A stretch of DNA of 64,000 nucleotides, taken from assembly GCA_020634495.1 (NCBI GenBank), contig JACKBR010000020.1, positions 25,892 to 89,891 of the forward strand, given 5' to 3'. The translations under genes were made by a program, and so were the position numbers. The DNA is from Ardenticatenaceae bacterium. Its GTDB lineage: Bacteria > Chloroflexota > Anaerolineae > Promineifilales > Promineifilaceae. Shown here in pieces: positions 17,048 to 38,823 of the stretch (the stretch's first letter is position 1; each line of letters opens with the position of its first letter). A model generated the notes under the pieces. The model did not search any database, was not told where the DNA came from, and saw only the letters and a program-made list of their open reading frames with translations.

Positions 17048-19702
17048 CTAATCCAAAAGATGAAGATCGCGGGCGCGGGCGACGGCCTGGGTGCGGTTGT
17101 TGACGTCTAGCTTGGCGTAGAGCCGCCGGGTGTGGGCTTTGATCGTGTTGAGGGAGAGGATCATCTCGTTGGCGATGTCGCGGTTGGTGCGGCCTGCCGC
17201 CAGATGGCGCAGCACATCCAGCTCGCGCGGGCTGAGGGGCTGGATGGCGGGAGCCGGGGCGCTGTTTTCCGGGTCGCAGTGGGCGAGCAGGGTGCGGGCA
17301 TAGCTTGCCGTGACGGGATTGTTGGCCGCCAGATGCAGCAGGCGGTGCAGCGCCGGGTCGGGCACATCGAGGAAGAGGCGCACGTAGCCGCCGGGTTCGG
17401 CCTGGGTAAGCGTTTGTTGGAAGAGGGGAACGGCCGTATCCAGCGCTCCCATCTTGGCCTGCACGAGCGCTTGCAAAAGGGAGACACGCAGCCCAAAACT
17501 TTTGCTCTGCCGTTCCTCAGCAAATTCACAAAGCACGTCCAGCACCGGCAGCACAGCCGCGTACTCCCGATTGGCCACGTGGAAATTGGCCAAAAGCAGG
17601 TACGTGCCGGGGAGTTCTCGAATCTTTTCGGCATCGGCGTCAATGGCAACGCCCAGGCCGTCGGCCCACTGGCGCACCAGGCGCATGTCGCCCCGCTGCA
17701 AAGCCATCTCAGCCCGGAAGCTGGAAATGGTGGGGGATTGAAGCTGCTGCTCCAGGGCAACAACCAACGAGTCGGCGGCAGGCCAATCGTCCAGGGTGAG
17801 CCAAAGTTGGGCCAGCGCTTCGCGGCTGTAGATGAGCATTTTGTGGTCGCCGCTGCGTTCGGCGCAGGCCAGGGCGTGGCGCAGATGGGTTTCTGCCTCG
17901 CCCAGGCGGTTCCATTCGTAGAGCAGCTTGCCCAGACCCAGGTGCATAAAGCCCACGGCGGCAGAACTGGCTGATTGGGAAACGGCCGTTGCCAGCCCTC
18001 GTTCATAAATGGCAAACGCTTCTTTGAGCTGCGCCTGCCGCTCGTGAGTTTGGCCCCAGTAAAAGGTGGCAAACATCACCGCCCACAGGCCGGGATCGTG
18101 GGTGCTGTTTTGGGCGGCTTCGGCAAAGGCGTCACGGGCGGCGTCTAGCTCGGCCCGCTGCAAATGGGAAAATCCCAAATTGATAGCCACTTCGCTGCGC
18201 AGCATGTGCTGGTCTTCTGGCAATTTGGACAAGGCTTTGGTAGAAAACTTTATGTTAATTTCCGTATCGCCGGTGATCATGGCCAATCGTGCCCGCAGCG
18301 CAGACCATTCGCCCCAAAGCAAGGCGGTGTCTAGCTGGTCGCTGATGGCTTCCAGCAGCCGTTTGGCCTGGCCAAATTCCCCGGTGCGAATGAGCGACCA
18401 GATGTAAAACAGCGTCAGGCGGGGCCGCGCCGTTTGGCGTTCTTCGGGCAGGGCTTCGACCCATTGGCGCAAGGTGATGCCTTCGCCAAACATGAGCACA
18501 TCGCGGGCGACTGCTTCCATGAGGGTTGTGGCCAGATCGTAGTCGGCGGCGGCCAGGGCGTGGTCCACGGCGATGAGCGATTGGCCGTTTTCGTGGTACC
18601 AGCAAGCGGCTTGCTGGTGCAGGTGGGCAATGTGGTCTAGGGATTTTTGCTGTTGGAGACGGCCGTTCAAAAAGTCGCCAAACAAATGGTGGTAACGATA
18701 CCAACGCCGCTCGGCATCCAACGGTACTAAAAATAGGTTGGCCGCTTCAATTTGCTCCAGAAGCTGCTGGCAAGGCTGGCCGGTGAGTTGTTCACACAAA
18801 CTGGCGTTGAACTGGCTGAGAACGGCCGTTTGCAATAAAAATTCCTGAATTTCGGCGGGCTGGCGACTCAGCACCTGATCGGCTAAATAATCCACCAGGT
18901 AGCGCTGGCTGCCAGAAAACGCCTCTGGCAGCGAGACCGATTCTTGCAGGGCCAGGGCGATAAGCTGCAAGCCCGTAACCCAGCCTTCAACTTGTTCGTC
19001 GAGCTGGGCGATTTGGCTGCTGGTGAGCTGCAAGCCCATCGTTTGCTGGAGAAATTGGGCGGCTTCGTCGGGCGTAAAGCGCAGGTCGCGGCTGCCAATC
19101 CAGTTAAGTGCGCCACGCGCCCGCAGCAGGGCCAGCGGCAAGGGCGGCTCGCTGCGGCTGGTGATGATGAGGTGCAGCTGCACGGGCATGTTTTGCAAAA
19201 TGAAGGTAGTGGCTTCATGCACGGCGGGGGTTGTTATTAAATGGTAGTCGTCGAGAACGACAACGGCCGTTTCTTCCCCCAGCGCCAGATCGTTGAGCAG
19301 GGCGGTGAGGATGGCTTCGGTGTCGTTGTAGAGGTAGGTGGACGTGAGCCGAGCCAGGGCCGCTTCGCCAATTTCCTCGCGCACGGTGCCGATGGCGGCA
19401 AACAGGTAGGCCAGAAAGCGGGCTTCATCGTTGTCGTTGGCGTCCAGCGACAGCCAGGCGACGGGCCGGGCCATCTGGGCAATCCACTGGCTGGCCAGGG
19501 TGGTTTTGCCGTAGCCAGCGGGGCCGGTGATGAGGGTGAGCTTGGGTTGGATGCTGCCTTCGGGGGAAACGGCCGTATTCAATTGATCCAGCAGCCGGGG
19601 GCGGAAGACGGGGTTGGTGCGCAGTCTGGGCAGGGTGAGCTTGGTTTGCAGCAACGGCCGTTTGGGTGATTCAACGTCAGTTTTAAGGTTCGCCTGTTCC
19701 AT
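17048..19702 (-). CDS. LuxR-family MalT/LAL-type STAND regulator
   Basis: The 884-residue protein has an N-terminal NTPase with Walker A (ITGPAGYGKTTLASQW near 59) and VVVLDDYHLI as Walker B. A TPR-like helical region (about 400-800) follows, then a C-terminal LuxR helix-turn-helix (LSPRELDVLRHLAAGRTNRDIA...). Such regulators oligomerise on binding ATP and an inducer, then activate transcription. I chose the ATG at 19702 because TATAAT lies exactly six bases upstream, implying a leaderless mRNA; an upstream start at 19741 would lie before that promoter. It is divergent from the thioredoxin-like selenoprotein gene across 53 bases and could regulate it. Confidence 0.9.
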   Translation of the reverse strand: MEQANLKTDVESPKRPLLQTKLTLPRLRTNPVFRPRLLDQLNTAVSPEGSIQPKLTLITGPAGYGKTTLASQWIAQMARPVAWLSLDANDNDEARFLAYLFAAIGTVREEIGEAALARLTSTYLYNDTEAILTALLNDLALGEETAVVVLDDYHLITTPAVHEATTFILQNMPVQLHLIITSRSEPPLPLALLRARGALNWIGSRDLRFTPDEAAQFLQQTMGLQLTSSQIAQLDEQVEGWVTGLQLIALALQESVSLPEAFSGSQRYLVDYLADQVLSRQPAEIQEFLLQTAVLSQFNASLCEQLTGQPCQQLLEQIEAANLFLVPLDAERRWYRYHHLFGDFLNGRLQQQKSLDHIAHLHQQAACWYHENGQSLIAVDHALAAADYDLATTLMEAVARDVLMFGEGITLRQWVEALPEERQTARPRLTLFYIWSLIRTGEFGQAKRLLEAISDQLDTALLWGEWSALRARLAMITGDTEINIKFSTKALSKLPEDQHMLRSEVAINLGFSHLQRAELDAARDAFAEAAQNSTHDPGLWAVMFATFYWGQTHERQAQLKEAFAIYERGLATAVSQSASSAAVGFMHLGLGKLLYEWNRLGEAETHLRHALACAERSGDHKMLIYSREALAQLWLTLDDWPAADSLVVALEQQLQSPTISSFRAEMALQRGDMRLVRQWADGLGVAIDADAEKIRELPGTYLLLANFHVANREYAAVLPVLDVLCEFAEERQSKSFGLRVSLLQALVQAKMGALDTAVPLFQQTLTQAEPGGYVRLFLDVPDPALHRLLHLAANNPVTASYARTLLAHCDPENSAPAPAIQPLSPRELDVLRHLAAGRTNRDIANEMILSLNTIKAHTRRLYAKLDVNNRTQAVARARDLHLLD

Positions 19703-19708
19703 CTGGCT

Positions 19709-19714
19709 ATTATA
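19709..19714 (-). promoter_or_regulatory. Leaderless -10 box (TATAAT) of the LuxR gene
   Basis: A perfect TATAAT on the minus strand ends six bases before the ATG at 19702. That places the transcription start at or next to the A of the start codon. No clear -35 box is seen. Confidence 0.5.
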
Positions 19715-19755
19715 CACTACTGTTATCGATACTGATTCCACGTCTGGAGGTTTGA

Positions 19756-20139
19756 ATGAAACGTTGGTTTTGGGGAACGGCCGTATCCCTTATGGTTCTG
19801 CTATTTGCTACCGTCAGCTGTGGCTCCGGTAGCGAAGAATCAGAGGCGCTGCCAGACATTGCAGGCCCGGCTTTTGTGTTGTTTTACACAGACAATTGAA
19901 GCCCCTGAGAGGAATTTGCGCCCATCGTGAATGGGCTAGAAGCGGAATTTGGGGAAGATGTTGAGTTTGTGCGGCTGAATGCCGCCGAGTCAGAAGTTTT
20001 GCAATTACAGCAAACCTATGGTCTGCGCGGGCATCCGTCGGTGGCTATTTTGGACAGCGCCGGGGAGGTGGCGGCGCTTTACTTTGGCCCAGAAACGGCC
20101 GAAACGTTGCGCAACAAGCTAAATGAGACGATTGAGTAA
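19756..20139 (+). CDS. Thioredoxin-like lipoprotein selenoprotein with Sec-x-x-Sec
   Basis: Read from the ATG at 19756 (GGAGG five bases upstream), this encodes 127 residues with in-frame TGA at codons 48 (19897-19899) and 51 (19906-19908). A signal peptide with lipobox (FATVSC, Cys22) leads into FVLFYTDN-Sec-Ser-Pro-Sec-EEFAPIV. That is precisely where thioredoxins have CxxC, and the cis-Pro loop GHPSV (Pro94) follows at the expected distance. Both redox cysteines therefore appear to be replaced by selenocysteine. A perfect 17-nt hairpin starts 11 nt after the second TGA. A membrane-anchored thiol/diselenide oxidoreductase is inferred. A pseudogene would need two stops exactly at both catalytic positions with the rest intact. 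Annotated alone, the gene would be cut to a 70-residue fragment from 19927. Confidence 0.85.
19920..19936 (+). promoter_or_regulatory. Predicted bacterial SECIS hairpin
   Basis: A six-base-pair stem GCCCAT/ATGGGC with five-base loop CGTGA (GU at loop positions 2-3) begins 11 nt after the second TGA and 20 nt after the first. The minimal E. coli fdhF element is likewise a 17-nt hairpin 11 nt downstream of UGA with a GU-containing loop. One hairpin may serve both UGA codons. The loop base composition is not identical to fdhF. Confidence 0.7.
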
Positions 20140-38727: not shown

Positions 38728-38736
38728 TCGTTAAGG

Positions 38737-38823
38737 CGGAGAGGGTGGGATTCGAACCCACGGTGACCGCAAGGCCACAGTGCTTTTCGAGAGCACCCCA
38801 ATCGTCCACTCTGGCACCTCTCC
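38737..38823 (-). tRNA. tRNA-Ser (anticodon CGA)
   Basis: The 87-base class II tRNA has acceptor stem GGAGAGG/CCTCTCC, a long variable arm, the TPsiC sequence GGGTTCGAATCCC and anticodon loop CTCGAAA, which gives anticodon CGA (reads UCG). The discriminator base is G, and CCA is not encoded. A rho-independent terminator follows. Confidence 0.93.

Follow-up and report, generated by a model that had tools for sequence, protein, structure and literature searches.

It is proposed that the gene at positions 19756-20139 on the forward strand of the window (the whole stretch of DNA analysed, 64,000 nucleotides) encodes a membrane-anchored extracytoplasmic thioredoxin with a predicted Sec48-x-x-Sec51 active site, in which a single SECIS-type hairpin behind the second UGA is likely to direct both insertions; we consider this reading highly probable. 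Translated with TGA as Sec, the frame gives a protein of 127 amino acids (MKRWFWGTAVSLMVLLFATVSC...FVLFYTDN-U-SP-U-EEFAPIVNGLE...GLRGHPSVAIL...) with Sec at codons 48 (UGA 1, 19897-19899) and 51 (UGA 2, 19906-19908), no third in-frame TGA and a TAA stop at 20137-20139. SelB recruited by the one hairpin would decode UGA twice within nine bases, and the two Sec residues could then form a diselenide with its distinct redox potential.

The earlier note had described the surroundings of the two TGAs as intact. A GGAGG ribosome site (19746-19750) lies 5 nt ahead of the ATG at 19756, and codons 1-22 (19756-19821), judged by eye from the sequence rather than with a predictor, resemble a signal peptide ending in the lipobox TVSC, with the lipid-bearing Cys22 at 19819-19821. 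This Cys is invariant in all 57 rows of alignment A2, from which four of the 56 UxxU genes counted below are absent. With Sec written as Cys, the protein matches the Pfam Thioredoxin profile PF00085 (E 1.6e-9; 38.1 bits vs a cut-off of 23.5), while its matches to AhpC-TSA and Redoxin fall under their cut-offs; the AlphaFold2 model has a thioredoxin fold with the cis-Pro loop, formed here by His93 and cis-Pro94 (GHP, 20032-20037). No NCBIfam profile reached its family cut-off with the window protein, and NF041057 (cut-off 190 bits) was not among the 15 NCBIfam families found at E ≤0.1. Divergent from the gene is a MalT/LuxR-type regulator (17048-19741, reverse strand), 90% identical to its counterpart at the same place in G001, the genome of locus L001 (Anaerolineaceae bacterium NAT123). 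The sole RNA gene in the window, and its sole Rfam match at gathering thresholds, is a tRNA-Ser (cga) at 38735-38823.

Homologues were sought in 396 genomes from the class that includes G001, and 225 of these gave matches. Among the matches listed there are at least 55 rows with two TGAs, from 50 genomes, and the top 39 matches are all of this kind. In the aligned part, read in the best frame, every one of the 55 genes fetched has TGA at both catalytic positions and none elsewhere; together with the window gene they make up the 56 UxxU genes of our counts (L001 was dropped as the same gene as L003), so that each of the two sites is TGA in 56 of 56. Two in-frame TGAs nine bases apart on both Cys positions of the CxxC motif, first noticed in the window alone, are thus matched exactly in 55 further genes, and because of these chance is excluded. 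Two in-frame stops in one sequence are also what a pseudogene (a decayed thioredoxin with two nonsense changes) or a sequencing error would produce. The identical pair of TGAs recurs in 55 loci from 50 genomes, which argues against this, as do the invariant fold residues in the relatives' alignment and, for 12 pairs of relatives, a dN/dS that is low (at most 0.46, where dS is finite) on either side of the TGAs; on the conservation across loci and the low dN/dS this explanation was rejected, and we find it hardly credible. A search of the phylum yielded an additional UxxU gene, L177 (G730), with SHP in place of GHP and a CCTAT/ATAGG hairpin, which stands outside the counts of 56. Two candidates were discarded: L178, flagged in G149 as having two TGAs, is a UxxC gene plus another TGA elsewhere, and L002, one of two loci from a contig scan, is an ordinary CGPC thioredoxin.

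The earlier note had also held that ordinary gene callers lose the N-terminal half and the active site of the protein, and the databases bear this out. A phmmer search of 5.8 billion proteins returned 91 matches, 90 of which are pieces of 70-81 amino acids; in the 13 pieces inspected, the start is the hairpin-loop GTG or lies a few codons upstream of it. The sole full-length match has Trp at both sites, as with TGA decoded as Trp. In a profile search, only P0005, P0094 and P0095 among the best 120 of 719 matches span the active site, with Trp at exactly both sites. Such Trp-Trp entries are what a caller using TGA as Trp would print. The annotation is in need of correction, since the versions in the databases searched are either headless pieces of 70 amino acids or carry Trp for Sec. 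The full-length Trp forms of P0005, P0094 and P0095 could also be taken to mean that the window's organism reads UGA as Trp (or Cys), giving a WxxW or CxxC site and no selenium. However, TGA terminates 9 of the 35 window ORFs of at least 150 amino acids and 5 of the 24 of at least 300 (greedy ORF choice), it is confined to the two catalytic sites in the aligned part of the family, paralogues have Cys at those positions, a SECIS-type hairpin is present and Sec genes occur in relatives. TGA as Trp was rejected on its use as a stop in window ORFs, its restriction to the catalytic sites, the Cys paralogues and the hairpin, and reassignment as a whole is very improbable.

The hairpin, GCCCAT-CGTGA-ATGGGC, occupies 19920-19936 and consists of a 6-bp stem and a 5-nt loop (19926-19930) in which positions 2 and 3 are G and U. 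The loop lies 26 nt behind UGA 1 and 17 nt behind UGA 2, and the 44-nt stretch containing the hairpin has an MFE of -10.6 kcal/mol. According to the excerpted part of a 2026 selenoprotein review, a bSECIS has a loop of 3-9 nt, a stem of 4-16 bp, G in loop positions 1-2, a spacing of 16-37 nt and an MFE of at most -7.5 (PMC13188914); the hairpin satisfies these rules, as excerpted, for both UGAs. The earlier note had pointed to 19897-19950 as the place to look for a bacterial SECIS, and it is inside that stretch that this rule-conforming hairpin was found. A tailored TGA-plus-hairpin pattern occurs at one place on both strands of the 64 kb, with 0.06 expected from mononucleotide shuffles.

Codon choice across the hairpin is strongly constrained. 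At codons +8 to +12, which form the hairpin, the same codon is used at a level of 0.86-1.0 vs 0.27-0.50 expected, the UxxU genes having CCC for Pro in 51 of 55, ATC for Ile in 52 of 52, GTG for Val in 56 of 56, AAT or GAT for Asn/Asp in 50 of 53 and GGG for Gly in 49 of 50; none of the 12 pairs of relatives has a synonymous change in these five codons. From codon +13 onward the genes follow the codon usage of the family, unlike the hairpin codons. Codons -4, +1 and +2 are likewise above the expected same-codon level; the Tyr codon at -4 (window 19885-19887), which lies outside the hairpin, is TAC in 39 of the 41 genes with Tyr there (0.90 vs 0.50 expected).

Base pairing in the hairpin is kept in 95.2% of cells of alignment A1. 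Covariation was assessed in alignment A3, whose 87 rows, none dropped, comprise the 56 UxxU genes and 31 UxxC paralogues, L021b and L146 being without the hairpin. Both sides have changed in six of six pairs, in 50 cells vs 10.7 in shuffles, with none of 500 shuffles as high, and sliding the alignment by one column halves the pairing. The variants of the stem include CTCGT/ACGAG, CCTAT/ATAGG, CCTAC/GTAGG and AGCAC/GTGCT. Folding energy is not better than in shuffled sequences (z -0.72 for the window; 0.45 to -1.37 over seven stretches), and the RNAalifold consensus for the UxxU genes alone has an energy of only -0.81 kcal/mol. Folding energy by itself was dropped as evidence for a SECIS on account of these z-scores; the case for a SECIS rests on conservation and covariation.

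It could be that just one UGA is usefully decoded, with translation mostly stopping at the other, and that a short or mixed form is the relevant protein. Low efficiency is expected when Sec must be inserted twice, and a 70-residue product could start at the loop GTG of the hairpin, as gene callers have it. On the other hand, selection maintains the stretch before the UGAs as well as both UGAs in 55 genes, and UxxC paralogues carry the same hairpin behind their first UGA alone. We therefore judge a single useful UGA to be improbable and retain the insertion of Sec at both positions as the preferred reading.

The earlier note had proposed a check for Sec genes, and this was done on the relative G001, in which selA, selB, selD and tRNA-Sec are all present. 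Of the 50 gene-bearing genomes, 49 have a match to one or more of these, and selB is over its cut-off in 43, compared with 270 of the 346 other genomes (313 of 396 in total). Among the gene-bearing genomes with selB below the cut-off, G154, G279, G375 and G191 have selA, G313 has tRNA-Sec and selD, and G316 has selD and a fragment of selB at a contig end; selD by itself is not specific for Sec. A tRNA-Sec match at or over the cut-off was obtained in 25 of 26 genomes, four of the 25 scoring 47-50 bits and so possibly being other tRNAs, and in 21 of the 24 genomes of a second set. The exception is G327 (loci L039 and L110), which gave no match to selA, selB, selD or tRNA-Sec despite its UxxU gene with an intact hairpin; either a recent loss or an assembly gap would account for this. 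The genome is of 5.6 Mb, and its UxxU gene is on a contig of 5.63 Mb. The co-occurrence of Sec genes is weak evidence because selB is frequent in this class in any case, and with so high a base rate it was set aside as proof.

The comparison set, hand-picked from the same lists, consists of 41 genes lacking a second Sec, 31 of them UxxC and 10 CxxC. The UxxC genes (e.g. L004, L071 and L150) represent a broad thioredoxin-like family with many lipobox members and the same hairpin. These lipoprotein paralogues are of the same fold family as the window protein and differ from it in their second active-site residue, which is Cys; 29 of the 31 carry a matching hairpin (4 or 5 of 5 pairs) at the same place, 21 nt behind the single UGA. 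The residue before cis-Pro also separates the groups, being His in 55 of 56 UxxU genes vs none of the 31 UxxC and none of the 10 CxxC genes; in the UxxC paralogues it is mostly Gln, Thr, Val or Arg. Outside that set GHP is found in L172 (CxxC) and L179 (UxxC), and the notion that UxxU alone has His before cis-Pro was dropped on their account. L172, with the same His-cisPro loop, together with the UxxC and CxxC paralogues supplies the Cys homologues that the earlier note had suggested seeking. In L021 the UxxU gene is closely preceded, on the same strand, by a second selenoprotein-like gene (U-Q-P-C; L021:510-944).

A tree of 97 proteins (Sec treated as Cys, 96 usable columns, midpoint root, deeper order uncertain; the later-found L172, L179 and L177 excluded) indicates that UxxU arose by two changes, each required by branches with good support. 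Next to UxxC genes stands a clade of 55 UxxU genes with support of 91/81, or 98/89 without L067, and L068, also UxxU, falls within a UxxC group with support of 100/99. There are no Cys forms inside the 55-gene clade of this tree. The ancestors of the UxxU genes may have been UxxC lipoproteins in whose genes the hairpin already followed the only UGA at 21 nt; a change of TGC or TGT to TGA at the second position, 12 nt before the existing hairpin, would have been a single-base step to UxxU. Because the UxxC paralogues share the hairpin behind a single UGA, one base change would presumably have been enough. A second Sec could thus arise by way of one hairpin at a distance suiting two UGAs nine bases apart. 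Two CxxC genes nested among UxxC genes, L083 (5 of 5 pairs) and L074 (4 of 5), retain the hairpin, and they are perhaps reversions to Cys with a relic SECIS.

The neighbourhood of the gene was examined at 40 loci, the window and 39 of the 55, in flanks reaching 6 kb at most and in many cases cut off by a contig end, with 20 hand-placed stretches from ten of the same genomes as controls and tblastn counts; the neighbour families were chosen post hoc, after single-linkage clustering had shown their recurrence. A copper-type P-type ATPase is near the gene in 26 of 40 loci vs 1 of 20 controls (two representatives score over the TIGR01511 cut-off), and a cytochrome c in 20 of 40 vs none of 20 (PF00034 in a representative). 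Smaller excesses are seen for a DsbA cluster that includes DUF3105 proteins (13 of 40 vs 1 of 20), a CopI-like family whose match to CopI is weak and below cut-off (7 of 40 vs none of 20) and DUF1573 (6 of 40 vs none of 20). Regulators (13 of 40 vs 6 of 20) and histidine kinases (8 of 40 vs 4 of 20) are not enriched. The copper ATPase is missing from 14 of the 40 loci and the cytochrome from 20. In G001 a cytochrome gene lies between the LuxR-type and UxxU genes and is absent there in the window. Fusions of a UxxU-type thioredoxin to cytochrome c were found in L018, whose cytochrome part was recognised by reading the sequence rather than by a Pfam run, and in the database proteins P0187, P0198 and P0202. 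A PPHxxxGHTW stretch is present in 13 of the 20 clustered neighbour cytochromes and also in the fused cytochrome parts of L018, P0187 and P0202; P0198 ends before it.

As many relatives adjoin copper ATPase and cytochrome c genes, we propose, by analogy with these loci, that the protein may be a diselenol reductant in copper or cytochrome maturation, a role for which we see the chances as about even. The diselenol form would reduce disulfides of copper- or heme-binding proteins outside the membrane prior to metal loading. None of the copper ATPase, cytochrome c, DsbA/DUF3105, CopI-like and DUF1573 families has a member in the 64 kb of the window, and the role is therefore carried over from relatives. 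TlpA of Bradyrhizobium, whose active site is Cys, unlike the predicted Sec of the window protein, offers a parallel. In the excerpted description it reduces the disulfides of ScoI and COX II before metal loading (PMC6696091); by that description it is, like the window protein, a membrane-anchored thioredoxin-like protein, and it is tied to copper-site assembly.

The window locus, which has none of these copper or cytochrome genes, would suit an extracytoplasmic reductant in the repair of peroxide damage or methionine sulfoxide, with no link to copper. Many Sec thioredoxin-like proteins serve repair, but the enrichment of copper ATPase and cytochrome c genes beside the relatives and the fusions to cytochrome c speak against such a role here, and we regard it as unlikely. 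The copper ATPase neighbours could instead indicate that the Sec-x-x-Sec protein binds and transfers copper(I), with His93 as third ligand, rather than reducing disulfides. Favouring this are the near-constant His before cis-Pro in the UxxU genes, lacking in the 31 UxxC genes, and the listing of UxxU for the metal-binding selenoprotein NF041115; the GHP of one UxxC gene (L179) and one CxxC gene (L172) weighs on the other side, and we hold this alternative to be unlikely. In its fullest form, to which we likewise assign a low probability, the protein would be a selenium copper chaperone: two selenolates and His93 would make an extracytoplasmic Cu(I) site passing copper from a CopA-type ATPase, whose gene adjoins many of the relatives, to cytochrome oxidase or a cupredoxin, and the pre-existing SECIS would have made the second Sec a one-base step, taken at least twice. 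The disulfide-reducing role set out above remains our preferred assignment. Whichever function holds, the family makes testable the decoding of two successive UGAs by SelB, a diselenide in an extracytoplasmic thioredoxin and the use of selenium in copper handling.

As far as our searches reach, a double-Sec (UxxU) thioredoxin lipoprotein is new, while Sec thioredoxins and UxxC (seleno)lipoproteins are known. The SelL family, said to have been described by Shchedrina in 2007, reportedly has two Sec residues in a UxxU redox motif. An excerpt of the GOS paper terms SelL 'a Prx-like protein', and the excerpts of that paper place UxxU in the Prx-like 2 family and two Sec residues in a ferredoxin-thioredoxin reductase (PMC2398784). 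SelL and the window protein thus have the UxxU motif in common and are set apart by description, the window protein being a small PF00085 lipoprotein whose gene has a single hairpin behind the two UGAs. The 2026 review counts 119 selenoprotein families or subfamilies, and its table, in the part available, has three UxxU entries, namely Prx-like oxidoreductases, the metal-binding NF041115 and FmdB, with thioredoxin PF00085 given as UxxC (PMC13188914). No UxxU thioredoxin lipoprotein appears in that table, nor in PMC9312934 or PMC2398784, in the parts of these sources available. Compared with the UxxC thioredoxin selenoproteins of the PF00085 row, which share its domain and have Sec first, the window protein has Sec at the second position too and is a lipoprotein. 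Next to the few UxxU entries of that table, as excerpted, stand the 55 genes of a single clade, each with UGA in place of both thioredoxin cysteines.

The earlier note knew of no lipoprotein with such a motif. This holds for UxxU, yet it does not extend to Sec lipoproteins at large, since the Rcas_1661 family NF041057 is already catalogued as a UxxC (seleno)lipoprotein family; it is likewise of thioredoxin type but DsbG/DsbA-like with UxxC, and the window protein does not match it. In L089 a member of NF041057 neighbours the UxxU gene. The metal-binding selenoprotein NF041115 shares UxxU and a metal context with the window protein and has an HMA-type domain, not a thioredoxin. At L101:1759-4218 the HMA stretch of a copper ATPase neighbouring the UxxU gene scores over the NF041115 cut-off (103.6 vs 95 bits).
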